Part shown: piece after piece, positions 40,609-55,919 of the stretch
Layout: each line of letters opens with the position of its first letter
Position numbering within the stretch: position 1 is the first letter of the stretch
Source of the DNA: Pseudomonas sp. FP2309
GTDB taxonomy: Bacteria > Pseudomonadota > Gammaproteobacteria > Pseudomonadales > Pseudomonadaceae
Length of the DNA: 64,000 nt
Direction of reading: 5' to 3'
Assembly: GCF_030687575.1 (NCBI RefSeq)
Contig: NZ_CP117439.1
Location: forward strand, 372,001 to 436,000
Notes under the pieces: generated by a model
What the model saw: only the letters and a program-made list of their open reading frames with translations
Database searches by the model: none
What the model was told of the DNA's origin: nothing
Program-made: the position numbers and the translations under genes

Positions 40609-41973
40609 TTAACCGAGTAAGTCTTTCAACACTTCAGTAAACGCCTGGCTGCTTTCTTCCTCGCCGGCATGATGCCCATCGCGAACCACCCACTTGCCGT
40701 TGACCAACACATCGCGCACTTGCCGATCACCGCCGGCGAACAGCCAGCGGTTGAGAATGCCATCTCCGGTGGCCGTCGCCAGGTAAGGGTCGTTACCGTC
40801 CAGCACGATCCAATCCGCACGCTTGCCCACTTCCAATCCACCAACAGGCTGACCCAGCGCCTGCGCACCGCCGTCCAGCGCGGCATCGAACAGCGTACGG
40901 CCGACCATCGGTTGGTCGCTGCGATACAGGCGGTTGCGCCGCTGATCACGCAGGCGCTGGCCGTATTCCAGCCAACGCAATTCTTCCACCACACTCAATG
41001 ACACATGGCTGTCGGAGCCGATGCCCATGCGCCCGCCCTGGGCGAGAAAATCCACTGCCGGGAAAATTCCGTCGCCCAGGTTGGCCTCGGTGGTCAGGCA
41101 CAGACCTGCAATCGCACGACTTGTGGCCATACGCGTAACCTCGTCGGCATCGGCGTGGGTGGCGTGCACCAGGCACCAGCGTTGATCCACCTCGACATTG
41201 TCATACAGCCATTGCAGTGGGCGCTTGCCGCTCCAGGCCAGGCAGTCAGCGACTTCTTTTTGCTGTTCGGCGATGTGGATATGCACCGGGCAGGCCTTGT
41301 CGCTGGCGGCCAACACCTCATTGATCTGTTGCGGCGTGACCGCGCGCAGTGAGTGGAAGCACAGGCCCAACTGTTGCGCCGGTTGCGCGGCCAGGATGGG
41401 TTGCAGGCGTGCTTGCAAGTCCAGGTAGTGGTCGGTGCTGTTGATAAACCGTCGCTGGCCGTCATTGGGTGCCTGGCCGCCAAACCCTGCGTGGCTGTAG
41501 AGCACCGGCAACAACGTCAGGCCGATACCGCTGCTGGCCGCCGCCTGGCTGATCTGGCGCGACAGCTCCGTGCGGTCGGCGTACGGCTGGCCGCTGACAT
41601 CGTGATGCACGTAGTGAAACTCGGCGACCGAGGTGTAACCGGCCTTGAGCATCTCGATATACAGCTGACGTGCGATCACCTGCAGTTGCTCCGGGCTGAT
41701 CTTGCCGACCATGCGGTACATCAGCTCGCGCCAGGTCCAGAAACTGTCATTGGGGTTGCCCGCGACTTCGGCCAAACCTGCCATGGCGCGCTGGAACGCG
41801 TGCGAATGCAGGTTTGGCATACCCGCCAAAACCGGGCCTCTCAGCCGTTCTGCGCCCTCTGCGCTGGCATTGGCCACCATCTGTGTCAGGCGACCATCGA
41901 CGCTGACTTCAAGACGTACATCATTGGCCCATCCACTAGGCAGCAGCGCGCGTTCGGCAAAGAAAGCGGACAT
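40609..41973 (-). CDS. hutF: Formimidoylglutamate deiminase HutF
   Basis: HutF removes ammonia from N-formimino-glutamate to give N-formylglutamate, the step that defines the five-step histidine pathway. The 454-residue amidohydrolase shows metal sites PNLHSHAFQRAMAG, HIHIAEQQKEV, LVHATHADADEV and GIGSDSHVSLSVVEELRWLEYGQRL, the last being a HutF hallmark. It is transcribed away from hutC, with a HutC-type operator 28 bases upstream. Confidence 0.97.
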   Translation of the reverse strand: MSAFFAERALLPSGWANDVRLEVSVDGRLTQMVANASAEGAERLRGPVLAGMPNLHSHAFQRAMAGLAEVAGNPNDSFWTWRELMYRMVGKISPEQLQVIARQLYIEMLKAGYTSVAEFHYVHHDVSGQPYADRTELSRQISQAAASSGIGLTLLPVLYSHAGFGGQAPNDGQRRFINSTDHYLDLQARLQPILAAQPAQQLGLCFHSLRAVTPQQINEVLAASDKACPVHIHIAEQQKEVADCLAWSGKRPLQWLYDNVEVDQRWCLVHATHADADEVTRMATSRAIAGLCLTTEANLGDGIFPAVDFLAQGGRMGIGSDSHVSLSVVEELRWLEYGQRLRDQRRNRLYRSDQPMVGRTLFDAALDGGAQALGQPVGGLEVGKRADWIVLDGNDPYLATATGDGILNRWLFAGGDRQVRDVLVNGKWVVRDGHHAGEEESSQAFTEVLKDLLG

Positions 41974-42000
41974 GATCAGAGCACCCCGGTCGTGTGTTTA

Positions 42001-42015
42001 TTTGTATATACATAT
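42001..42015. promoter_or_regulatory. HutC operator between hutF and hutC
   Basis: TTGTATATACAT contains the palindrome TGTATATACA (42003-42012), followed by a second overlapping TATACA. It resembles the HutC site CTTGTATGTACAAG and lies where it can repress hutF and autoregulate hutCD. Confidence 0.65.
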
Positions 42016-42081
42016 ACAGACGTTTGCCTGCTCGGTAAACTCCGGCAATCTATGCATCTTTTCCCCCTGCAAGGATTCCCT

Positions 42082-42831
42082 GTGCCGACTCCGCCCGCCA
42101 ACTCTTCGCTGGCTGCCCACATGGACGAAAGTCCGGCGCCCTTGTATGCCCGCGTCAAACAAATGATCAGCCAGCAAATTCTCAACGGCAACTGGCCGCC
42201 CCATTACCGCGTGCCGTCGGAAAGCGAACTGGTCAGCGAACTGGGCTTCAGCCGCATGACCATCAACCGCGCCTTGCGCGAGCTCACGGCCGAAGGGTTG
42301 CTGGTGCGCATGCAAGGCGTCGGCACATTTGTCGCCGAGCCCAAGAGCCAGTCTGCGCTGTTTGAAGTGCACAACATTGCTGATGAAATCGCCTCCCGCG
42401 GTCATCGGCATACCTGCCAGGTCATCACCCTGGGCGAAGAAGCCGCCGGTTCCGAGCGCGCCGTGGCCCTGGAGATGCGTGAAGGCGGGCGGGTCTTCCA
42501 TTCGTTGATCGTGCATTACGAAAACGACATTCCCGTGCAAATCGAGGACCGTTTCGTCAACGCCCTGGTGGCCCCGGAATACTTGCAGCAGGACTTCACC
42601 CTGCAAACCCCTTACGCCTACCTGAACCAGGTGGCCCCGTTGACCGAGGGCGAGCACGTGGTTGAAGCGATTCTCGCCGACGCCGCCGAGTGCAAACTGC
42701 TGCAAATCGAGCCGACCGAGCCGTGCCTGTTGATTCGCCGGCGCACCTGGTCCGGCCGCCAGCCGGTGACGGCTGCACGCTTGATCCATCCCGGTTCGCG
42801 CCACAGCCTCGAAGGACGGTTCAGTAAATGA
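42082..42831 (+). CDS. hutC: Histidine utilization repressor HutC
   Basis: This 249-residue GntR-type repressor binds urocanate as inducer. The winged helix-turn-helix (about 20-85) reads PLYARVKQMISQQILNGNW, VPSESELVSELGFSRMTINRALREL and GVGTFVAEPK. The UTRA effector domain (about 100-245) has HSLIVHYENDIPVQIEDRFVN. The GTG at 42082 with AAGGA six bases upstream is chosen; an ATG at 42052 in frame has no site. Its stop overlaps the hutD start (ATGA). Confidence 0.96.
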   Translation: MPTPPANSSLAAHMDESPAPLYARVKQMISQQILNGNWPPHYRVPSESELVSELGFSRMTINRALRELTAEGLLVRMQGVGTFVAEPKSQSALFEVHNIADEIASRGHRHTCQVITLGEEAAGSERAVALEMREGGRVFHSLIVHYENDIPVQIEDRFVNALVAPEYLQQDFTLQTPYAYLNQVAPLTEGEHVVEAILADAAECKLLQIEPTEPCLLIRRRTWSGRQPVTAARLIHPGSRHSLEGRFSK

Positions 42832-43711: not shown

Positions 43712-45382
43712 GTGACCAAGCCTACAAAATACCGTGACGTCGAAATCCGCGCCGCCCGTGGTAACACGCTCACCGCCAAAAGCTGGCTGACCGAAGCGCC
43801 GCTGCGCATGCTGATGAACAACCTCGACCCGCAAGTGGCCGAGAACCCCAAGGAACTGGTGGTGTACGGCGGCATCGGCCGTGCCGCGCGTAACTGGGAG
43901 TGCTACGACCAGATCGTCGAAAGCCTCACGAACCTGAACGACGACGAAACCTTGCTGGTGCAATCGGGCAAGCCGGTTGGCGTATTCAAGACCCACAGCA
44001 ACGCCCCGCGCGTGCTGATCGCCAACTCCAACCTGGTGCCGCACTGGGCCAGTTGGGAGCACTTCAACGAACTGGATGCCAAGGGCCTGGCCATGTACGG
44101 CCAGATGACCGCCGGCAGCTGGATCTACATCGGCAGCCAAGGCATCGTCCAGGGGACATACGAAACCTTCGTCGAAGCCGGTCGCCAGCACTACGACAGC
44201 AACCTCAAAGGCCGCTGGGTACTCACCGCCGGCCTCGGCGGCATGGGCGGCGCGCAGCCGCTGGCGGCCACGTTGGCCGGTGCGTGCTCGCTGAACATCG
44301 AGTGCCAGCAGGTCAGCATCGATTTCCGCCTGGCCAGCCGTTATGTCGACGAGCAAGCCACCGACCTCGACGACGCCCTGGCGCGCATCGATAAATACAC
44401 AAAAGAAGGCAAGGCCATCTCCATCGCCTTGTTGGGTAACGCCGCAGAAATCCTGCCGGAACTGATCAAACGTGGCGTGCGCCCGGACATGGTCACCGAC
44501 CAGACCAGCGCCCACGACCCGCTCAACGGCTACCTGCCGGCCGGCTGGACCTGGGACGAATACCGCGCCCGCGCCAAGACCGAACCGGCTGCGGTGATCA
44601 AGGCGGCCAAGCAGTCGATGGCCGTGCACGTCAAGGCCATGCTGGAATTCCAGAAACAAGGCATCCCGACCTTCGACTACGGCAACAACATCCGTCAGAT
44701 GGCCCAGGAAGAGGGCGTGCAAAACGCATTCGACTTCCCTGGCTTTGTACCGGCCTATATCCGCCCCTTGTTCTGCCGCGGCATTGGCCCGTTCCGTTGG
44801 GCGGCCCTGTCCGGCGACCCGCAAGACATCTACAAGACCGACGCCAAAGTCAAAGAACTGATCCCGGACGACGCTCACCTGCACAACTGGCTGGACATGG
44901 CGCGCGAGCGCATCAGCTTCCAGGGCCTGCCGGCGCGGATCTGCTGGGTCGGTCTGGGCCAGCGCGCCAAGCTGGGCCTGGCGTTTAACGAAATGGTGCG
45001 CAGCGGCGAGCTGTCGGCCCCCGTGGTCATCGGTCGCGACCACCTTGATTCCGGCTCGGTAGCCAGCCCGAACCGCGAAACCGAATCCATGCAGGATGGC
45101 TCCGACGCCGTGTCCGATTGGCCGTTGCTCAACGCCTTGCTCAACACCGCCAGCGGCGCGACCTGGGTCTCGTTGCACCATGGTGGTGGCGTCGGCATGG
45201 GCTTCTCCCAGCACTCCGGCATGGTCATCGTCTGCGACGGTACCGACGAAGCGGCTGAGCGTATTGCCCGCGTGCTGCACAACGACCCGGCCACCGGTGT
45301 GATGCGTCACGCAGACGCCGGTTATCAGATCGCCATCGACTGTGCCAAAGAGCAGGGCCTGAACCTGCCGATGATCAAGTAA
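43712..45382 (+). CDS. hutU: Urocanate hydratase HutU
   Basis: HutU adds water to urocanate to give imidazolonepropionate, using tightly bound NAD. The 556 residues have the family start [35 protein letters not shown], the NAD-binding [18 protein letters not shown] and the C-terminal [19 protein letters not shown]. The start is a GTG at 43712. It heads the long hut operon. Confidence 0.97.
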
Positions 45383-45425: not shown

Positions 45426-46898
45426 ATGGCTGCAAATGACGCGCGTGCAAGCACCACCCCGTTGATCGAGAAACGTTCGATCGACTACATCCCGCAAGCG
45501 GAAAGACACGGTCGTCTCTTGAGCCAGTTCACCCTGTGGCTGGGGGCCAACCTGCAGATCACGGCCATTGTCACCGGGGCCTTGGCCGTGGTGCTGGGCG
45601 GTGATGTGTTCTGGTCGTTGATCGGTCTGTTGATCGGCCAACTGCTGGGCGGCGCGGTGATGGCGCTGCATGCCGCGCAGGGCCCGCAACTGGGCTTGCC
45701 GCAGATGATCTCCAGCCGTGTGCAGTTCGGTGTGTATGGCGCGGCCATTCCGATGGTGCTGGTGTGCCTGATGTACCTGGGCTTCACGGCAACGGGCACC
45801 GTCCTGTCCGGCCAGGCCTTGGGCCAGTTGTTCAGTGTCAGCGACAGCGTCGGCATCCTGATCTTCGCCAGTGTCATCGTGCTGGTCACGGTGTTGGGTT
45901 ATCGGGTGATCCACTTTATCGGCCGCGTCGCCAGCGTCATTGGCGTGATTGCCTTCGTTTACCTGTTTATGCGCCTGGTGGGCCAGGCTGACATCGGCGC
46001 CTTGTTGCAAATCCGCCATTTCAGTTGGGGCAGCTTTTTGCTCGCGGTGTCGCTCGCGGCCTCCTGGCAGATCGCCTTTGGCCCTTATGTGGCTGACTAT
46101 TCACGCTACTTGCCGAGCAGCACCTCGTCGGTGAAAACCTTCCTCGCCGCCGGCGCCGGCTCGGTGATTGGCGCGCAGGTGGCGATGGTCCTCGGTGTGT
46201 TTGCCGCGGCCATGGCCAACGGGAAATTCGCCGGCCATGAGGTGGCCTACATCGTGGGGTTGGGCGGGAGCGGTGCCGCCGCTGCGCTGCTGTATTTCAG
46301 CATCGCATTCGGCAAGGTCACCATCTCGACGCTGAACTCCTACGGCAGCTTCATGTGCATTGCCACCATCATCAGCGGCTTTCGCGGGCACTTGCAGGTA
46401 TCACGCCTGCAGCGCCTGGTGTTTGTGTTGCTCATCGTCGGCACCGCAACGCTGATCGCGCTGCTGGGCCAGCATTCGTTCCTCGGTGCGTTCAAATCCT
46501 TCATTTTGTTCCTGCTGGCGTTCTTTACGCCTTGGAGCGCGATCAATCTGGTGGACTTCTACTGCATCACCCGTGAGCGCTATGACGTACCGGCGTTGTC
46601 CGATCCAAACGGGCGCTACGGCCGCTGGAACCCGCTTGGGATCAGCGTGTATGTGTTCGGCGTGCTGGTGCAGTTGCCGTTCATCTCCACCAAGTTCTAC
46701 ACCGGCCCGCTGGTGGACGTGCTGGGCGGCGTGGATATCTCCTGGATCATCGGCCTGGTGCTACCCGCAGCCCTGTATTACGTGTGCGCAAAAAAATGGC
46801 ACGCCAGCGTGCCCGATCAACTGATTCTGCCGCTCGAGCAGGACAGCGTTGTACCCACCAAAACAAGCAGAGCCGGTCGCGCTGCGGCGCAGGCCTGA
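45426..46898 (+). CDS. NCS1-family permease, probable urocanate or histidine-derivative importer
   Basis: The 490-residue protein has twelve predicted membrane segments and the NCS1 (CodB-like, purine-cytosine permease) pattern: LLSQFTLWLGANLQITAIVTGAL in segment 1, PQMISSRVQFGVYGAAIP, and FGPYVADYSRYLP after segment 5. FLLAFFTPWSAINLVDFYCI is near segment 10. In SBW25 a CodB-like gene is in the same position after hutU. Placement suggests uptake of urocanate or a related imidazole. The family usually carries nucleobases or hydantoins. Start and stop are well spaced (43 bases after hutU). Confidence 0.82.
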   Translation: MAANDARASTTPLIEKRSIDYIPQAERHGRLLSQFTLWLGANLQITAIVTGALAVVLGGDVFWSLIGLLIGQLLGGAVMALHAAQGPQLGLPQMISSRVQFGVYGAAIPMVLVCLMYLGFTATGTVLSGQALGQLFSVSDSVGILIFASVIVLVTVLGYRVIHFIGRVASVIGVIAFVYLFMRLVGQADIGALLQIRHFSWGSFLLAVSLAASWQIAFGPYVADYSRYLPSSTSSVKTFLAAGAGSVIGAQVAMVLGVFAAAMANGKFAGHEVAYIVGLGGSGAAAALLYFSIAFGKVTISTLNSYGSFMCIATIISGFRGHLQVSRLQRLVFVLLIVGTATLIALLGQHSFLGAFKSFILFLLAFFTPWSAINLVDFYCITRERYDVPALSDPNGRYGRWNPLGISVYVFGVLVQLPFISTKFYTGPLVDVLGGVDISWIIGLVLPAALYYVCAKKWHASVPDQLILPLEQDSVVPTKTSRAGRAAAQA

Positions 46899-46966: not shown

Positions 46967-47932
46967 ATGAAAATGAATAAGACCCTGCTGACCACGTTGT
47001 TCTCGGCAGGCTTGCTTGCCAGCAGCGGCGCCTATGCGGCCGGCTGGTGCGAGTCGGGTAAACCGGTGAAATTCGCAGGCCTGAACTGGGAGAGCGGCAT
47101 GCTGCTCACCGACATCCTGCAAACCGTTCTGGAAAAAGGCTACGACTGCAAAACCGACAGCTTGCCGGGTAACTCCATCACCATGGAAAACGCCCTGAGC
47201 AGCAATGACATCCAAGTGTTCGCCGAAGAATGGGTCGGCCGCAGCGAAGTCTGGAACAAGGCCGAGAAGGCCGGCAAAGTCGTCGGCGTAGGCGCGCCGG
47301 TGGTGGGCGCTATCGAAGGCTGGTACGTGCCGCGCTACGTGATCGAAGGCGACGCCAAGCGCAAGCTGGCCGCCAAGGCGCCGGACCTGAAAAACATCGC
47401 CGACCTGGCCAAGTACGCCGCCGTGTTCAAGGACCCGGAAGAACCCTCCAAGGGCCGTTTCTACAACTGCCCGGCCGGCTGGACCTGCGAGCTGGACAAC
47501 AGCGAGATGCTCAAAAGCTACGGCCTGGAAAGCAGCTACACCAACTTCCGCCCAGGCACCGGCCCGGCGCTGGATGCGGCGGTGCTGTCGAGCTACAAGC
47601 GTGGCGAGCCGATCCTGTTCTACTACTGGTCGCCAACCCCGCTGATGGGCCAGGTCGACCTGGTGAAGCTTGAAGAAAAGCCCGGTGTGGACAAGACCGT
47701 GAGCATCAAGGTCGGCCTGTCCAAGGCCTTCCATGAGCAAGCGCCGGAACTGGTGACCGTGTTCGAAAAGGTCAACCTGCCCATCGACCTGTTGAACCAG
47801 AACCTGGGGCGCATGGCCAAGGAGCGGATTGAATCGCCGAAACTGGCGAAGATTTTCCTCAAGGAACATCCTGAAGTCTGGCACGCCTGGGTCAGTGAAG
47901 ACGCCGCCAAGAAAATCGACGCGGCCTTGTAG
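46967..47932 (+). CDS. hutX: ABC transporter substrate-binding protein (HutX-like)
   Basis: The 321-residue precursor has a signal peptide (cut after AYA) and the OpuAC/ProX-type binding fold: GKPVKFAGLNWESGMLLTDILQTVLEKGYDCKTDSLPGN and a C-terminal GEPILFYYWSPTPLMG. This type binds quaternary amines or histidine-like ligands with aromatic side chains. The start at 46967 is taken because it gives the signal peptide; the frame is open from 46784. Together with the next two genes it forms a periplasmic uptake system; in SBW25 the same trio is called hutXWV and is linked to histidine. Confidence 0.88.
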   Translation: MKMNKTLLTTLFSAGLLASSGAYAAGWCESGKPVKFAGLNWESGMLLTDILQTVLEKGYDCKTDSLPGNSITMENALSSNDIQVFAEEWVGRSEVWNKAEKAGKVVGVGAPVVGAIEGWYVPRYVIEGDAKRKLAAKAPDLKNIADLAKYAAVFKDPEEPSKGRFYNCPAGWTCELDNSEMLKSYGLESSYTNFRPGTGPALDAAVLSSYKRGEPILFYYWSPTPLMGQVDLVKLEEKPGVDKTVSIKVGLSKAFHEQAPELVTVFEKVNLPIDLLNQNLGRMAKERIESPKLAKIFLKEHPEVWHAWVSEDAAKKIDAAL

Positions 47933-48003
47933 GTCAAGTGCGCCCGGCTACCCTGTAGGGTGGCCGGGTGCTTGGCCACAACCCACTGGATCGAGAGCAC
48001 GCT

Positions 48004-48855
48004 ATGTTTCCTGAGAGTTTTACGTTTTCCATTGCCGACTGGGTCAACGGTTGGGTGGATTCACTGGTCACCAACTACGGCGATGTGTTCCGGCAGATTT
48101 CCGACACCCTGCTGTGGGCCATCGTCAACCTCGAAGGCCTGCTGCGCGCAGCGCCGTGGTGGTTGATGCTGGCTATCGTCGCCGGCATTGCCTGGCACGC
48201 CACACGCAAGGTGGTGACCACCGTCGTGATCGTCGGCCTGCTGTTCCTGGTGGGGGCGGTTGGGCTGTGGGACAAGCTGATGCAAACCCTGGCCCTGATG
48301 ATGGTGGCCACGGTGATTTCGGTGCTGATCGGCATTCCGTTGGGCATTCTCTCGGCGCGCAGCAATCGCCTGCGTTCGGTGCTGATGCCACTGCTCGACA
48401 TCATGCAGACCATGCCCAGCTTCGTGTACCTGATCCCGGTGCTGATGCTGTTCGGCCTGGGCAAAGTGCCGGCGATTTTCGCCACGGTGATCTACGCGGC
48501 GCCGCCGCTGATTCGTCTGACCGACCTGGGCATTCGCCAGGTCGATGGCGAAGTCATGGAAGCCATCAACGCCTTCGGTGCCAACCGCTGGCAACAACTG
48601 TTCGGCGTGCAACTGCCTCTGGCGCTGCCCAGCATCATGGCCGGTATCAACCAGACCACCATGATGGCGTTGTCGATGGTGGTGATCGCCTCGATGATCG
48701 GCGCCCGTGGCCTGGGTGAAGACGTACTGGTCGGCATCCAGACCCTCAACGTCGGCCGAGGCCTTGAGGCCGGGCTGGCCATCGTGATTCTCGCCGTGGT
48801 CATCGACCGCATTACCCAGGCCTACGGTCGTCCACGGCATGAGGCGAGCAAATGA
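48004..48855 (+). CDS. hutW: ABC transporter permease (HutW-like)
   Basis: The 283-residue inner-membrane protein shows the ProW/OpuAB pattern: three N-terminal segments, then the binding-protein-dependent core. The EAA loop is around [36 protein letters not shown]. The N-terminal sequence [22 protein letters not shown] is typical of this subfamily. The stop overlaps the ATPase start (ATGA). Confidence 0.92.
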
Positions 48856-49676
48856 CTACTGTCAGCAAAATCGAAGTTAAAAACGTCTTCAAGATCTTCG
48901 GCAACCGTTCCAGGGAAGCGCTGGCGCTGGTTGGCCAGGGCAAGACCAAAGACCAGGTGCTGGCCGAAACCGGTTGTGTGGTCGGCGTGAACGACCTGTC
49001 CCTGAGCATCGCCACCGGTGAGATCTTCGTGATCATGGGCCTGTCGGGCTCCGGCAAATCCACCCTGGTGCGTCACTTCAACCGGCTGATCGACCCCACC
49101 AGCGGCGCGATCCTGGTGGACGGCGAAGACATACTGCAACTGGACATGGACGCCTTGCGCCAGTTCCGCCGCCACAAGATCAGCATGGTGTTCCAGAGCT
49201 TCGGCTTGCTGCCCCACAAGACCGTGCTCGACAACGTGGCCTACGGCCTCAAGGTGCGGGGCGAAACCAAGCAAGTGTGCGCCGAACGTGCGCTGCACTG
49301 GATCGAGACCGTGGGCCTGAAGGGCTACGAAAACAAATACCCGCACCAACTCTCCGGCGGCATGCGCCAACGCGTCGGCCTGGCCCGCGCCCTGGCGGCC
49401 GATACCGATATCATCCTGATGGACGAAGCGTTCAGCGCCCTCGACCCGCTGATCCGCGCCGAGATGCAGGACCAGTTGCTGGAGCTGCAAAAGACCCTGC
49501 ACAAGACCATCGTGTTTATCACCCACGACCTCGACGAGGCCGTGCGCATCGGCAACCGCATTGCGATTCTCAAGGACGGCAGGCTGATCCAGGTCGGCAC
49601 GCCGCGCGAGATCCTGCACTCGCCGGCGGATGAGTACGTGGATCGGTTTGTTCAGCGGCGCGCGGCGGTGGTCTGA
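48852..49676 (+). CDS. hutV: ABC transporter ATP-binding protein (HutV-like)
   Basis: The 274-residue ATPase has Walker [10 protein letters not shown], the signature [15 protein letters not shown], Walker [13 protein letters not shown] and the switch His in FITHDLDEA. It is close to ProV/OpuAA but ends without the CBS pair found in osmoregulated ProV, so it is probably not ionic-strength-gated. It couples to the permease gene before it; hutH1 follows 51 bases on. Confidence 0.93.
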
Positions 49677-49727
49677 CCCGGGTTTTGTGGCCGGTAATGC
49701 GGTAAACGTATTCAAGAAGGTATGAAG

Positions 49728-51236
49728 ATGTCCCAGGCAGCAACAATCATCATCGCCGACACCCCCCTGCGCTGGCAGGACGTGGTCGCCGTGGCTCGCC
49801 ATGGCGCAGCCCTTGAACTCTCGGACCAGGCCTGGGCGCGGATCGACAATGCCCAAGCCATCGTGCAGCGCATCGTCACCAGCGGTGAGCGCGCCTATGG
49901 GGTGAACACCGGCCTGGGCGCGCTGTGCAATGTGTCGCTCGAGGGTGAGCAACTGAGCCAGCTGTCGCGCAATACCTTGCTCAGCCATGCCTGCGGCGTC
50001 GGCCCGGTGCTGAGTGATGAGCAGACCCGCGCAATCATCTGCGCCGCCGTGATCAACTACAGCCACGGCAAATCCGGCCTGCATCCGCAGGTGGTGCGCG
50101 CATTGCTGGCGCTGCTCAACCATGGCATCACCCCGCAAGTGCCGTCCCAGGGGTCGGTGGGTTACCTGACCCACATGGCCCACGTCGGCGTGGCCCTGCT
50201 GGGCGTTGGCACCGTGAGCTATCGCGGCCAGGTCGTGACGGCGCAAGCGGCGCTGCAGGCCGAAGGTTTGCAGCCCGTGGTACTCGGCGCGAAAGACGGC
50301 CTGTGTCTGGTCAATGGCACGCCGTGCATGACCGGCCTGAGCTGCCTGGCCCTGGCCGATGCCCATCACCTGCTGCAATGGGCCGACGTGATCGGCGCCA
50401 TGAGTTTTGAGGCCCAGCGTGGTCAGATCGACGCATTCGACGAAGCCATCATCGCGCTCAAGCCGCACCCGGGCATGCAGAAGGTCGGCATCAACCTGCG
50501 GGCATTGCTCGACGGCAGTGAAGTGATCGCCAGCAGCAAGGGCATCCGCACCCAAGACGCGTTGAGCATTCGCTCGATCCCGCAGATCCACGGCGCCGCG
50601 CGCGACCAGGTGGAGCACGCCACGCGCCAGATCGAGACCGAGCTCAACAGCGCCACCGACAACCCGCTGGTGCTCGGCACCCCGGACCAATACCGCGTGG
50701 TGTCCCAGGCCAATCCGCACGGCCAGTCCGTGGCCATGGCCGCCGACCTGCTCGCCATCGCCATGGCCGAAATCGGCTCGGTGGCCGAGCGCCGCCTGGA
50801 CCGCCTGATCAACCCCCACGTCAGCGGCTTGCCGGCGTTTCTGGTGAGCAACCCAGGGGTCAATTCCGGAATGATGATCGTGCAGTACGTCGCGGCGTCT
50901 CTGTGCGGCCAGAACCGCCAATTGGCGCAACCGGCGGTGCTCGACAATTTCGTTACCTCGGGCCTGCAGGAAGACCACCTGAGCATGGGCACCAACGCGG
51001 CGCTCAAGCTGCACCAGCTGCTGGCCAACGTTACCCAGATCCTCGCCATCGAGTATCTGCTGGCGGCCCAGGCATTTGAATTCTTGAAGGATCAACGCTT
51101 CGGCGCAGGCACCGACAGGGCCTGGCGTTTGCTGCGTAATGTGGTTCCCGCCTACGAGCAGGACCGCTGGCTGGCGCCGGATATTGCGACCGCCGCCAGA
51201 TTGCTCAAAGACACTGTCTTACCGACTTTGCACTGA
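49728..51236 (+). CDS. hutH1: HutH-like protein without the MIO triad (HutH1)
   Basis: The 502-residue product is clearly of the histidine/phenylalanine ammonia-lyase family along its whole length. It cannot make the MIO cofactor: the loop reads GSVGYLTHMAH (142-152), where HutH2 next door has [14 protein letters not shown]. Ala, Ser and Gly are deleted precisely and the following Asp is Tyr146. Compared with P. putida histidase, Tyr57, His87, Asn196 and Arg282 are kept, while the Tyr280 and Phe329 positions are Leu279 and Pro330. The frame is intact and codon use is like its neighbours, so it is not decaying. It may bind histidine or urocanate, form mixed tetramers with HutH2, or have another activity. 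The ATG at 49728 has AAGG seven bases upstream. Confidence 0.9.
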   Translation: MSQAATIIIADTPLRWQDVVAVARHGAALELSDQAWARIDNAQAIVQRIVTSGERAYGVNTGLGALCNVSLEGEQLSQLSRNTLLSHACGVGPVLSDEQTRAIICAAVINYSHGKSGLHPQVVRALLALLNHGITPQVPSQGSVGYLTHMAHVGVALLGVGTVSYRGQVVTAQAALQAEGLQPVVLGAKDGLCLVNGTPCMTGLSCLALADAHHLLQWADVIGAMSFEAQRGQIDAFDEAIIALKPHPGMQKVGINLRALLDGSEVIASSKGIRTQDALSIRSIPQIHGAARDQVEHATRQIETELNSATDNPLVLGTPDQYRVVSQANPHGQSVAMAADLLAIAMAEIGSVAERRLDRLINPHVSGLPAFLVSNPGVNSGMMIVQYVAASLCGQNRQLAQPAVLDNFVTSGLQEDHLSMGTNAALKLHQLLANVTQILAIEYLLAAQAFEFLKDQRFGAGTDRAWRLLRNVVPAYEQDRWLAPDIATAARLLKDTVLPTLH

Positions 51237-51267: not shown

Positions 51268-52800
51268 GTGACTGCGCTAAATCTGATTCCAGGCCAACTG
51301 AGCCTTGCCCAACTGCGCGCCATCTACCAGCAGCCGGTGACCCTCAGTCTGGATGACAGCGCCACGGCGCAGATCGACGCCAGTGTTGCCTGTGTGGAGC
51401 AGATTCTCGCCGAGAACCGCACCGCCTATGGCATCAACACCGGTTTTGGCCTGCTGGCCTCGACCCGCATCGCCAGCGAAGACCTGGAAAACCTCCAGCG
51501 TTCCCTGGTGTTGTCCCACGCCGCCGGCGTCGGTGAGCCGATCAGTGACGCGCTGGTGCGGCTGGTCATGGTGCTCAAGGTCAACAGCCTGAGCCGTGGG
51601 TTCTCGGGGATTCGTCGCCAGGTGATCGACGCGCTGATCGCGCTGATCAATGCCGAGGTGTACCCCCACATTCCGCTCAAAGGTTCGGTGGGCGCATCCG
51701 GTGACTTGGCGCCATTGGCCCACATGTCCCTGGTGCTGCTGGGCGAAGGCAAGGCGCGTTACAAAGGTGAATGGCTGGACGCGACCGCCGCGCTGAAAAT
51801 CGCCGGCCTCGCGCCGCTGACCCTTGCCGCGAAAGAAGGCCTGGCGCTGCTCAACGGCACACAGGTTTCCACGGCCTATGCCCTGCGTGGCCTGTTCGAA
51901 GGTGAAGACTTGTTCGCCGGCGCATTGGCCTGCGGTGGCCTGACCGTGGAAGCGGTGCTCGGCTCGCGCTCGCCGTTCGACGCGCGTATCCATGCGGCAC
52001 GCGGCCAGCGTGGGCAGATCGACGCGGCGGCGGCCTACCGCGACCTGCTGGGCGAAAGCAGCCAGGTGTCGCAGTCGCACCAGAACTGCGACAAGGTGCA
52101 AGACCCGTACTCGCTGCGTTGCCAGCCCCAAGTCATGGGCGCATGCCTGACTCAGTTCCGCCAGGCCGCTGAAGTGCTGGAGGTAGAGGCCAACGCCGTG
52201 TCGGACAACCCGCTGGTATTTGCCGCCGAAGGCGACGTGATTTCCGGTGGCAACTTCCACGCCGAACCGGTGGCGATGGCCGCCGACAACATGGCCCTGG
52301 CCATCGCCGAAATCGGCTCCCTGAGTGAGCGCCGCATCTCGTTGATGATGGACAAGCACATGTCGCAACTACCGCCGTTCCTGGTGGGCAATGGCGGTGT
52401 GAACTCCGGCTTCATGATCGCCCAGGTAACCGCCGCCGCGCTCGCCAGCGAAAACAAGGCGCTGGCCCATCCCCATAGCGTCGACAGCCTGCCCACGTCC
52501 GCCAACCAGGAAGACCACGTGTCCATGGCCCCCGCTGCAGGCAAGCGTCTGTGGGAAATGGCTGAAAACACCCGTGGCATCCTCGCCGTGGAATGGCTGG
52601 CCGCGTGCCAGGGCCTGGACCTGCGCGAAGGCCTGAAGACCTCACCCACCCTCGAAAAAGCCCGCGGTATGTTGCGCGACAAAGTGGCGTTTTATGACAA
52701 GGACCGCTTCTTCGCCCCCGACATCATCGCCGCCAGCGAACTGCTCGCCAGCCGCTGCCTGAATGAACTGGTGCCGGCCACGTTGCTGCCGAGCCTGTAA
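51268..52800 (+). CDS. hutH2: Histidine ammonia-lyase HutH (canonical copy)
   Basis: This enzyme turns histidine into urocanate and ammonia. The 510 residues equal the P. putida enzyme in length. The MIO-forming Ala143-Ser144-Gly145 is in [17 protein letters not shown], and the active-site residues are in [36 protein letters not shown] and NFHAEPVA. The GTG at 51268 follows AAGGAG at seven bases. It lies 31 bases after hutH1 and 14 before hutI. Confidence 0.97.
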
Positions 52801-52814
52801 CTGAGGAGGCATTG

Positions 52815-54020
52815 ATGAAAACGCTTTGGCAACACTGCCACGTCGCAACCATGGCCGGCGGCAACTACTCGATCATCGAGGATGCGGCCATGGTGACCAC
52901 CGGTGCGCTCATCGAGTGGATCGGCCCGCGCAGCGCTGTGCCGACGGCGGATTACGTCCATGTGCATGACCTGCGGGGCGCGTGGGTCACGCCTGGACTG
53001 ATCGACTGCCACACCCATACGGTGTTTGGTGGCAACCGCAGCGGCGAGTTCGAACAACGTCTTCAAGGCGTGAGCTATGCCGAGATCGCCGCTAGCGGCG
53101 GCGGTATTGCCAGCACCGTGCGCGCCACCCGTGCGGCGTCCGAAGATGAACTGTTTGCCAGCGCTGAAAAGCGCCTGCGCAGCCTGCTGCGTGACGGTGT
53201 GACGAGCGTGGAGATCAAGTCCGGTTATGGCCTGGACCTGGCCAACGAACGCAAGATGCTGCGCGTGGCCCGGCGCCTGGGCGAAGCGCTGCCGGTGAGC
53301 GTGCGTGCCACCTGCCTGGCGGCCCATGCGTTGCCGCCCGAGTACAAGGACCGCGCTGACGAGTACATCGAGCACATCTGCAACGAGATGCTGCCGGCGT
53401 TGGCGGCGGAGGGGCTGGTGGATGCGGTGGATGCGTTCTGCGAATACCTGGCGTTCTCCACCGAGCAGGTGGAGCGGGTATTTAAAGTGGCGCGGCAACT
53501 TGGCCTGCCGGTGAAGCTGCATGCCGAGCAGCTGTCGTCGCTGCACGGCTCCAGCCTGGCCGCGCGGTACCAGGCGCTGTCGGCAGACCACTTGGAGTTC
53601 ATGACCGAAGAAGACGCTATCGCCATGGCCGCTGCCGGCACCGTCGCCGTGCTGTTGCCGGGGGCGTTTTACTTCTTGCGTGAAACCCAATTGCCGCCCA
53701 TGGACGCGTTGCGCAAACACGGGGTGAAGATCGCCATCGCCAGCGACCTCAACCCCGGCACCTCGCCGGCCCTCTCGGTGCGCCTGATGTTGAACATGGC
53801 GTGCACCTTGTTCCGCATGACCCCGGAAGAAGCCTTGGCGGGCGCCACCACACACGCCGCCACCGCGTTGGGCATGGGCGCCACCCATGGCTCGCTGGAA
53901 GTGGGCAAGGTCGCCGATTTTGTCGCCTGGCAGATCGATCGCCCCGCCGACCTGGCTTACTGGCTCGGCGGCGAGCTGGATAAACGCGTCGTGCGCCATG
54001 GCGTCGACGTCACCGTATAA
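52815..54020 (+). CDS. hutI: Imidazolonepropionase HutI
   Basis: HutI opens the imidazolone ring to formiminoglutamate. The 401-residue amidohydrolase shows metal and substrate motifs [55 protein letters not shown] and [18 protein letters not shown] stands before the ATG. It is followed by hutG 11 bases later. Confidence 0.97.
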
Positions 54021-54031
54021 GGAGTAATGCT

Positions 54032-54832
54032 GTGGATAAGGTTCTGAACTTCAAACAAGGCAGCACGCCGCTGTTGATCAGCATGCCCCACGCCGGCCTG
54101 CGCCTCACACCTGCGGTCGAGGCAGGGTTGATCCCCGAGGCGCAAGGCCTGCCGGATACCGACTGGCACATTCCGATGCTGTATGACTTTGCCGAGGAAC
54201 TGGGCGCCAGCACCCTTGCGGCCGAGTACTCGCGGTTTGTCATCGACCTGAACCGACCCTCCGATAACAAGCCGCTCTATGCAGGCGCCACCACCGGTCT
54301 TTACCCGGAGACATTGTTCGATGGGGTCCCGCTGTTTCGCGACGGTCAGGTGCCGACCGAAGAAGAGCGCGTGACCTACCTGCAAAAGATCTGGGGCCCG
54401 TATCACCGCGCCCTGCAAGAAGAGCTGGCGCGGCTCAAGGCCGAGTTCGGCTATGCGTTGCTGTTCGATGCACACTCGATCCGTTCGGTGATCCCGCATC
54501 TGTTCGAGGGCAAGCTGCCGGACTTCAACCTCGGCACCTTCAACGGTGCCGCGTGCGACCCTGAACTGGCCAGCCAGTTGGAGGCGATCTGCGCTGACCA
54601 TCCGCAGTACAGCCATGTACTCAACGGGCGCTTCAAGGGCGGCCATATCACCCGGCATTACGGCAACCCGGCGCAGGATATTCACGCGGTGCAGTTGGAG
54701 TTGTGCCAGAGCACCTATATGGAAGAGGTTGCGCCGTTCCGTTATAGGCCGGACCTGGCCGGGCCGACGCAGGTGGTGTTGAGGCAATTGCTGGAAGGCT
54801 TTTTGGCCTGGGGGCGAAAGCACTACCGCTAG
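54032..54832 (+). CDS. hutG: N-formylglutamate deformylase HutG
   Basis: HutG releases formate from N-formylglutamate, the last step of the five-step pathway. The 266 residues match the bacterial N-formylglutamate amidohydrolase: LLISMPHAGLRLTP, DTDWHIPMLYDFAEELGA, FVIDLNRP, FDAHSIRSV and RFKGGHITRHYG supply the metal and substrate residues. The start is a GTG at 54032 with GGAG nine bases upstream. No further hut gene follows. Confidence 0.96.
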   Translation: MDKVLNFKQGSTPLLISMPHAGLRLTPAVEAGLIPEAQGLPDTDWHIPMLYDFAEELGASTLAAEYSRFVIDLNRPSDNKPLYAGATTGLYPETLFDGVPLFRDGQVPTEEERVTYLQKIWGPYHRALQEELARLKAEFGYALLFDAHSIRSVIPHLFEGKLPDFNLGTFNGAACDPELASQLEAICADHPQYSHVLNGRFKGGHITRHYGNPAQDIHAVQLELCQSTYMEEVAPFRYRPDLAGPTQVVLRQLLEGFLAWGRKHYR

Positions 54833-54971: not shown

Positions 54972-55919
54972 ATGAAAAGACTGTTCAACCGTTACCTGTT
55001 GACCCTCACCGGCGCCGCGCTGCTCAGCGCGCAAGCCCTGGCCGCCGAGCCGGCCTCCTGCAAAACCGTGCGCATGGGCGTGGTCAGTTGGACCGACGTG
55101 GTCGCCACCTCCGGCATGGCCGACGTGCTGCTCACTGGCCCGGGCTACGACAGCAAGCAAACCAACGCCGTGCAGCAGATCATCTTTGCCGGCATCCGCG
55201 ACAAGCGCCTGGATATCTTCCTTGGCTACTGGAAGCCGGCCATGGACAACAACATCGCGCCGTTCCTCGCCGCCAAACAACTCAAGGTGCTCGACACGCC
55301 GAGCCTTGCCGACGCTCAGGCGACCCTGGCGGTGCCGCAATACGTGGCCGACGCTGGCCTGAAGACCTTCGCCGACATCGCCCGCTTCAAGCAGCAACTG
55401 GGCGGCAAGATTTATGGCATCGAGCCCGGCAGCGGTGCCAATACCGATATCCAGAAAATGATCGACACCAACCACTTCGGCCTGGGTGGTTTCAAGCTGG
55501 TGGCCTCCGGTGAAGCCGGGATGCTCGCGGCCGTGCAGCGCGCGGTGAACCGCAAGGAGTTCGTCGTGTTCGTCGGTTGGACCCCGCACCCGATGAACAT
55601 CAATATGCACATGACCTATCTCACCGGCAGTGAAGATGTGTTCGGCCCCAACGAAGGCCGCGCCACGGTCTCCACCGTCACCGCGCCGGACTTCGCCGAG
55701 CGTTGCCCGAATGCCAATCGATTGTTGGAGAATCTCACCTTCACCGCCGCTCAGGAAAGCCAGTTGATGGTGCCGATCATGGAGCGCAAATCGCCCCAGG
55801 AGGTGGCCAAACAATGGTTGCGCGATCATCCCGAGGATCTGCAGCGTTGGCTGGCCGGGGTGACCACGTTTGACGGCAAAGAGGGTGTGGCAGCGGTGCA
55901 GGCCAGCCTTAAACCTTGA
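54972..55919 (+). CDS. Orphan ChoX-like substrate-binding protein
   Basis: The 315-residue precursor has a signal peptide (cut after ALA) and the OpuAC fold as in choline-binding ChoX: VRMGVVSWTDVVATSGMADVLL, DIFLGYWKPAMDNN and VVFVGWTPHPMNINMHMTYL with the tryptophans that box a quaternary amine. Choline, betaine, carnitine or a similar cation is the likely ligand. No permease or ATPase is next to it; pseudomonads often have several such orphan proteins sharing one CbcWV core. It is followed by a hydrolase gene 52 bases on, probably in one unit. The 139-base spacer from hutG shows no clear site. Confidence 0.8.
   Translation: MKRLFNRYLLTLTGAALLSAQALAAEPASCKTVRMGVVSWTDVVATSGMADVLLTGPGYDSKQTNAVQQIIFAGIRDKRLDIFLGYWKPAMDNNIAPFLAAKQLKVLDTPSLADAQATLAVPQYVADAGLKTFADIARFKQQLGGKIYGIEPGSGANTDIQKMIDTNHFGLGGFKLVASGEAGMLAAVQRAVNRKEFVVFVGWTPHPMNINMHMTYLTGSEDVFGPNEGRATVSTVTAPDFAERCPNANRLLENLTFTAAQESQLMVPIMERKSPQEVAKQWLRDHPEDLQRWLAGVTTFDGKEGVAAVQASLKP

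Follow-up and report, generated by a model that had tools for sequence, protein, structure and literature searches.

The stretch of DNA analysed here (the window: 64,000 nucleotides of Pseudomonas sp. FP2309, positions 372,001 to 436,000 of the forward strand of contig NZ_CP117439.1, NCBI RefSeq assembly GCF_030687575.1) contains a hut operon in which a canonical histidase gene, hutH2, is directly preceded by a second, histidase-like gene, hutH1, whose product has lost precisely the three residues that in histidase cyclise to form the electrophile 4-methylideneimidazole-5-one (MIO). We propose, with a probability of roughly two in three, that HutH1 is nonetheless an active lyase, which would work without MIO to remove trimethylamine from histidine betaine (hercynine) and so deliver urocanate to the urocanase HutU; the substrate, the product, the catalytic base and the geometry of the pocket are what we infer from sequence comparisons and gene order. 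The gene and its active-site loop are as follows.

49728..51236, plus strand: hutH1, MIO-less protein of the HAL/PAL/TAL family (PF00221), predicted histidine-betaine (hercynine) trimethylamine-lyase.
50151..50183, plus strand: active-site loop of HutH1, GSVGYLTHMAH, with Ala-Ser-Gly gone at 50162/50163 and the Asp that follows replaced by Tyr146.

The frame from 49728 to 51236 is open and 502 residues long (the protein could also start two codons earlier, from the in-frame ATG at 49722), and its translation and alignment with HutH2 bear out the preliminary description, which had reported an intact gene and an exact loss of the MIO triad: the loop of HutH1 is exactly three residues shorter than that of HutH2, the codon of Gly145 ending at 50162 and that of Tyr146 starting at 50163. 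The alignment likewise agrees with that description in placing Leu279 and Pro330 where P. putida histidase has Tyr280 and Phe329, and in showing Tyr57, His87, Asn196 and Arg282 to be retained, to which Gln276 and Glu415 (Glu414) can be added. HutH1 is thus like histidase (HutH, EC 4.3.1.3; P. putida 1b8f; here HutH2) in its fold family, in six active-site residues and in its operon, but it fails two features of a histidase, namely the MIO-forming Ala-Ser-Gly triad and the pair Tyr280 and Phe329, and is only 40% identical to HutH2. It matches PF00221 with 554.5 bits over residues 14-470 and lies barely over the threshold of the curated histidase model TIGR01225 (541.3 against a cut-off of 539.15), a model that here accepts a protein devoid of the triad. 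There are three matches to the family in this genome: HutH1, HutH2 and a third paralogue with Ala-Ser-Gly some 73 kb away. A self-made, MIO-like ring formed from what is left of the HutH1 loop was considered, but this would have to arise from Gly-Tyr-Leu, with neither a Ser nor a following Gly, and no route to it is known to us.

This loop is fixed among the relatives of HutH1. It is found exactly in all 121 of a set made up of HutH1 and its best 120 of 7438 homologues, and in the wider form GS[V/A]GY[L/I][T/S/A]H in 134 of 136 unique open reading frames scoring nearer to HutH1 than to HutH2 (at least 380 residues long, from the loci gathered by then, some of them repeating part of a gene where loci overlap); the two exceptions are a third-type paralogue with Ala-Ser-Gly and an ergothionase-like protein, which is also without the triad. 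Residues were compared in an alignment of 253 HutH1, 102 HutH2, three third-type, two group-B (see below) and two ergothionase-type sequences, the HutH1 rows of which were picked by their loop or from the homologue list, so that the loop columns are not independent, and include many close relatives. Throughout these 253 sequences Tyr53, His83, Asn195, Gln277, Arg283 and Glu414 are each kept and the position of Tyr280 is Leu, while that of Phe329 is Pro in 249 and Ala in the remaining 4. The mean ratio of nonsynonymous to synonymous substitution rates (dN/dS, by the method of Nei and Gojobori) is 0.113 for hutH1, over 528 non-independent pairs from 33 operons; in the same operons it is 0.118 for hutI, 0.128 for hutG, 0.097 for hutX, 0.091 for hutV, 0.070 for hutH2 and 0.059 for hutU. 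Because the loop is fixed and dN/dS is low, sequencing error, chance and a relic gene are ruled out, and the orthologue comparison that the preliminary description had called for thus upholds its view that the gene has been retained in frame under selection. Nor is there any sign of the relaxed constraint expected of a pseudoenzyme or sensor, six positions being invariant and dN/dS being as for the enzymes of the pathway.

As to distribution, a match at the level of HutH1 (E <= 1e-138) occurs in 208 of the 298 genomes of a genus sample, counted by eye, and the exact loop, sought as a strict DNA pattern, in 7 of 194 genomes of an order sample and 13 of 398 of a phylum sample, these last two overlapping. 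Named HutH1 loci come from Salinicola, Vreelandella/Halomonas, Oceanimonas, Zobellella, Pokkaliibacter and Polaromonas, with others in P. aeruginosa PA7, Erwinia, Burkholderia and Rhizobium. If PA5093 is the HutH1 of P. aeruginosa, naming it hutG would clash with the hut clusters seen here. It is named hutG in the accessible part of PMC12772324.

MIO serves to make ammonia, which by itself leaves poorly, a good leaving group; trimethylammonium is already one, and an enzyme that expels it can therefore dispense with MIO. In the mechanism proposed, a betaine-type transporter (here HutXWV) would import hercynine (N-alpha-trimethylhistidine), His87, Asn196, Arg282, Gln276 and Glu415 of HutH1 would grip its imidazole and carboxylate, the beta proton would be taken off (most probably by Tyr57) and 1,2-elimination would then expel trimethylamine, leaving urocanate to be degraded by HutU, HutI, HutF and HutG. 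Tyr280 of histidase lies near the amino group, and Leu279 in its place may form a hydrophobic seat for trimethylammonium; the roles given here to Leu280 and Tyr53 are putative. Lyases of the fumarase/aspartase superfamily, which have a distantly related fold, likewise need no MIO to eliminate amines or other groups, though their active-site loop and substrates differ from those of HutH1. What leads us to a hercynine lyase is the combination of the binding residues of histidase, the missing MIO, a small hydrophobic residue at the amine site, a betaine-type transporter upstream and a urocanase in the pathway. The proposal would also explain why hutH1 of SBW25 is dispensable for growth on histidine, a result mentioned in the preliminary description and repeated in the accessible part of a review (PMC8871633). 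Among the open-licence literature matches listed, the accessible text names no hercynine lyase and makes no remark on the loss of MIO in HutH1.

The closest precedent is ergothionase (PDB 6s7j/6s7q, from Treponema denticola), a PF00221-type member of the family that, according to the accessible part of PMC13405746, frees trimethylamine from ergothioneine without MIO, so that MIO cannot be, as had been stated, the electrophile used by all known members of the family. Like HutH1, ergothionase has Leu at the position of Tyr280 and keeps the positions of Tyr53, Gln277, Arg283 and Glu414, and its substrate is a histidine-derived betaine, as is proposed for HutH1. The enzyme is reportedly (Maurer et al., in 2019) dependent on four essential catalytic residues. 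Its loop, SSIGEGD, is one residue short with the Asp kept, whereas HutH1 has three residues missing and Asp replaced by Tyr (GSVGY---LTH against SSIGEG-DIT), and its linkage to hutU and hutI further distinguishes HutH1 from ergothionase. HutH1 can be excluded from the ergothionase clade, since it stands apart in both of the trees that include ergothionase and has a different type of loop; ergothionases and HutH1, on separate branches, are thus each without MIO and without Tyr280. Ergothioneine as the main substrate of HutH1 is not favoured, because the neighbouring genes are hutU, hutI and hutG. The HutH1 cluster of Salinicola corii also contains an OpuAC-type protein and an ergothionase-like gene, and the best solved relative of this second lyase-like protein is ergothionase 6s7j (268 bits, the runner-up scoring 238.5). 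Ergothionase-like genes were seen at L083:4513-6045 on the minus strand (this S. corii locus; loop GSLGAAD) and at L197 (Polaromonas sp. P2-4; loop GSIGVAD); the position of Tyr280 is Leu in the former and Val in the latter, the loop has AA or VA, and in both the position of His83 is Arg.

The second line of evidence concerns what stands upstream of hutH1, for which the remaining features of the operon are needed.

40609..41973, minus strand: hutF, formiminoglutamate deiminase, with relatives in other hut loci.
41353..42831, plus strand: open reading frame with the HutC repressor as its C-terminal part, named by reading; similar frames occur in hut loci.
43712..45382, plus strand: hutU, urocanase, which would take the predicted product urocanate; named by reading and position, with relatives.
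45426..46898, plus strand: hutT-like NCS1 permease (PF02133).
46967..47932, plus strand: hutX, OpuAC/ProX-type substrate-binding protein of the betaine family (PF04069, 208.4 bits).
47968..48855, plus strand: hutW, ATP-binding cassette (ABC) permease; nearest model a choline ABC permease, at 296.1 bits, below its cut-off of 363.
48852..49676, plus strand: hutV, ABC ATPase matching the betaine/proline/choline model TIGR01186 (370.1 against a cut-off of 326.6).
51268..52800, plus strand: hutH2, canonical histidase with Ala-Ser-Gly (MIO) and Tyr280, from the alignment.
52812..54020, plus strand: hutI, imidazolonepropionase, named by reading.
54032..54832, plus strand: hutG, N-formylglutamate deformylase, named by reading.
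54972..55919, plus strand: choline-type substrate-binding protein directly after hutG (TIGR03414, 433.4 bits, cut-off 379.05).

Only 51 bases separate the end of hutV from hutH1, and all eight PDB matches of HutX (positions 46970-47929 being used for its domain and PDB comparisons) are of glycine-betaine, proline or choline type or are unnamed ABC chains, the best being 7yle. Neighbours were counted over 102 loci, comprising 22 hand-picked from genomes and plasmids and the best 80 of 581 relatives, in order of their similarity to the Salinicola sequence; some genomes appear twice (e.g. as L083 and L100), and L089 and L090 (group B) were left out. To count as a neighbour, a gene had to be the next one upstream, share the strand of hutH1 and lie no more than 500 bases away; it was recognised by similarity to a reference set. 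On this basis the gene upstream of hutH1 is a transporter gene in 101 of the 102 loci: hutV in 71, a betaine/carnitine/choline transporter (BCCT; the permease of L091, for instance, belongs to this family, PF02028) in 18 and a HisP-type (HisP/opine-family) ABC ATPase in 12. HutH2 served as a control: of the 68 HutH2 genes that these loci contain, 51 come after hutH1 and just two come after a transporter, with no limit set on distance. The one HisJ-type binding protein tested, that of L085, has octopine/nopaline-binding proteins as its nearest relatives (it scores 211.9 bits with these and 104.3 with a histidine-binding protein), and the HutX, BCCT and opine-type families would all seem better suited to quaternary or N-alpha-substituted amines than to free histidine. 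In 14 of the 102 loci none of hutU, hutI, hutG, hutH2, hutF or hutD was recognised within the fetched stretch; hutXWV-hutH1 stands alone in nine of the 14, several of which carry the names P. putida, P. monteilii or P. soli. Burkholderia pyrrocinia has a unit of ABC genes, HutH1 and HutC, its HutC passing TIGR02018 (284.8 against 220), and HutC responds to urocanate according to the accessible parts of PMC12977541 and PMC8871633. A further point in favour is that a SolA-type N-methyl amino acid oxidase adjoins the ABC-HutH1 unit in L078 and L099.

Some observations on these neighbourhoods may be added here. The sole HutH1 for which no upstream transporter was recognised, that of L080 (genome G250), is 50% identical, has the loop GSVGYISHMAH and lies beside a divergent LysR-like gene; possibly it has another substrate. 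A second HutX-like protein (51-54% identical to HutX) is found near hutU in L076 (15493-16503), L087, L088, L112, L113, L119, L135 and L178, with no matching hutW or hutV alongside, the copy in L076 being OpuAC. In the window, the protein at 54972..55919, with 2reg (choline/betaine-binding) as its best PDB match, has no permease or ATPase frame beside it and might supply HutWV or another betaine transporter. The place equivalent to 45426..46898 is taken in SBW25 by HutTu, a urocanate transporter (PMC8871633, in the part available).

A third consideration is that HutH1 can apparently head the pathway by itself. All 28 of the HutH1 genomes checked have hutU, and the one among them without HutH2 is S. 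corii, rated 100% complete. A search with PF00221 in three Salinicola assemblies (S. corii, a metagenome-assembled genome with a 99% identical HutH1, and S. lusitanus) gave HutH1 and a third-type paralogue in each and HutH2 in none, a completeness rating being available for S. corii only; an ergothionase-like protein appeared in S. corii alone. The other four assemblies in this search had HutH2, broken in one of them. Gene order in Salinicola is hutU, BCCT, HutH1 and hutI in a row, with hutF nearby and hutG recognised in two of the three. In the one Priestia megaterium operon inspected, on a plasmid, hutU, hutI, an agmatinase-family gene and two MFS genes accompany a MIO-less HutH with the loop GSLGYLNHQAH and Leu at 280; this plasmid record has a single place that matches the family, and the same protein occurs at 99% or more in 12 records. 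On another Priestia plasmid the genes run HutP-HutH-HutU-HutI, and there HutH has Ala-Ser-Gly. HutH2 of Polaromonas sp. P2-4 is in three pieces with HutH1 open, but sequence errors are possible since hutU is also in two pieces there. Genome G080 (L081, L157) similarly has an open HutH1 and a HutH2 split with a stop, which may reflect sequence quality, as its third paralogue is also split and its completeness rating is 86%.

Related MIO-less proteins extend well beyond HutH1. In a 55-row tree HutH1 forms one clade (30 rows, support 100/99), beside which group B, a set of relatives with a GSVGYLxxExH-like loop, is placed weakly (82/61) and with a long-branch warning. A 35-row tree with 11 new sequences and no ergothionases has a single GSxGY branch (99/95), and in a 37-row tree (20 GSxGY proteins, 14 MIO enzymes from four phyla and three ergothionases) all 20 GSxGY proteins, including those of group B, Priestia and Agrobacterium, fall on one side of a branch (96/93), with the ergothionases separate from them (100/100); it must be remembered that in this last tree seven rows are unlike in composition, three are long and the backbone is weak (71/46). 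The GSxGY branch reaches the Bacillota. If the ancestor had MIO, at least two losses are needed overall and, most simply, one within the GSxGY branch. Group B shares with HutH1 the same three-residue loss, the change of Asp to Tyr and the branch itself, and differs from it in a loop Glu, present in those sequences that were displayed, and in keeping Phe329 in the two rows checked; GSVGY was found in 113 of 120 listed homologues, the other seven being unread by the pattern. Its members, from Pseudomonas, Rhizobium, Burkholderia, Bacillus and Paenibacillus, include L089:9373-10917 (minus strand), L090:9863-11401 (plus strand) and P0122-P0241, and many are labelled histidine ammonia-lyase. Directly upstream of the group B gene in both L089 and L090 is a polar-amino-acid/opine-family ABC ATPase, with an SBP_bac_3 protein in L090, and the gene in L089 lies near a Rieske oxygenase, a reductase and a thiolase, with no hut genes. 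An Agrobacterium plasmid (NZ_CP123840.1, L207:6965-8512, plus strand) encodes a MIO-less lyase with the loop GSVGYLIATSH and Leu at 280, preceded by an OpuAC-type ABC transporter and followed by a CoA transferase, a hydroxyacyl-CoA dehydrogenase and an enoyl-CoA hydratase, which looks like an aromatic betaine route via CoA esters. A broader proposal, for which we see about even odds, is that GSxGY is an ancient branch, in which MIO was lost once, of amine-lyases for aromatic amino-acid betaines: HutH1 would act on histidine betaine and its sister groups on others, with the resulting acrylates passing through CoA (L207) or oxygenase (L089) steps. The rule would then be that without MIO a quaternary or substituted amine leaves, and many records named histidine ammonia-lyase in this branch would be misnamed.

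A number of points weigh against hercynine as the substrate. HutH1 keeps Asn195, which is lost in ergothionase-type proteins, and has Pro (249 of 253) where histidase and ergothionase both have Phe329, so that the pockets of HutH1 and ergothionase differ; and loss of MIO does not always go with loss of Tyr280, since group B, without MIO, has Tyr at this position in 85 of the 120 listed homologues (Leu in 28, another residue in 2, unread in 5). HutXWV is described, in the accessible part of PMC8871633, as participating in histidine uptake, which must be a side activity if HutH1 is a hercynine lyase, while an opine-type binding protein does not specifically indicate a quaternary amine. The title of PMC12772324 has HutC sensing PCA. 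HutH1 is rarely the sole head enzyme, HutH2 being present in 27 of the 28 HutH1 genomes checked, and to treat the H3-type paralogue of Salinicola (with Ala-Ser-Gly, and Gln for Glu414) as something other than a histidase is our own reading of it. No gene for trimethylamine degradation was recognised in the operon, none having been searched for in the genome. Finally, the model for EgtD, which makes hercynine (TIGR03438), has no match in this genome, the control being a weak one (one of 14 control genomes matched, under the cut-off); endogenous hercynine was set aside on this ground, and the substrate would therefore come from outside.

What else might HutH1 be? It could be a MIO-free lyase for some other N-alpha-substituted histidine (N-methyl- or dimethylhistidine, or histopine), again yielding urocanate, and the HisP/opine-family ABC genes upstream in 12 of the 102 loci, together with the SolA-type oxidases of L078 and L099, would suit such substrates. 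We think this unlikely, given that the BCCT and HutXWV-type transporters of 89 of the 102 loci are of quaternary-amine families and that secondary and tertiary amines leave poorly without MIO. Less probable again is a catalytically dead HutH1 that binds histidine or urocanate, either serving as a sensor or partnering the adjacent transporter in the cytoplasm. The missing MIO, the changes at Tyr280 and Phe329, the constant position directly after a transporter gene and the fact that the gene is not required on histidine (PMC8871633, in part) are all compatible with this, but six catalytic or binding residues are invariant in 253 sequences, the supposed partners come from three transporter families, and HutH1 is the sole candidate for head enzyme in the operons of Salinicola and Priestia. 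A mixed tetramer with HutH2, modulating histidase, we hold to be very improbable: active sites in this family are built from several subunits, hutH1 directly precedes 51 of 68 HutH2 genes and the two occur together in nearly every genome checked, yet they are only 40% identical, three Salinicola assemblies have HutH1 but show no HutH2, and in 14 of the 102 fetched stretches HutH1 is accompanied by none of hutU, hutI, hutG, hutH2, hutF and hutD. The preliminary description had left a sensor, a mixed tetramer and a MIO-free reaction as options: the last is now favoured and has acquired a substrate class, the mixed tetramer is not needed because of these occurrences without HutH2, and a pure ligand sensor is weakened in that it leaves the invariant residues and the operons headed by HutH1 alone unexplained. 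A decaying duplicate or assembly error, for which the lost triad alone would speak, is refuted by the conserved loop class (134 of 136), the dN/dS of 0.113, the clade support of 100/99 and a loss common to related MIO-less groups.

HutH1 has been an unexplained second histidase since the work on SBW25, and the hercynine proposal makes its function testable by growth. Hercynine is the histidine betaine made by fungi and mycobacteria, and if the proposal is true, common soil and plant Pseudomonas would degrade it through the hut operon, releasing trimethylamine. For the family as a whole it would mean that MIO is dispensable once the leaving group is already activated, and that part of the GSxGY branch is mislabelled by the curated histidase model, whose cut-off HutH1 clears.

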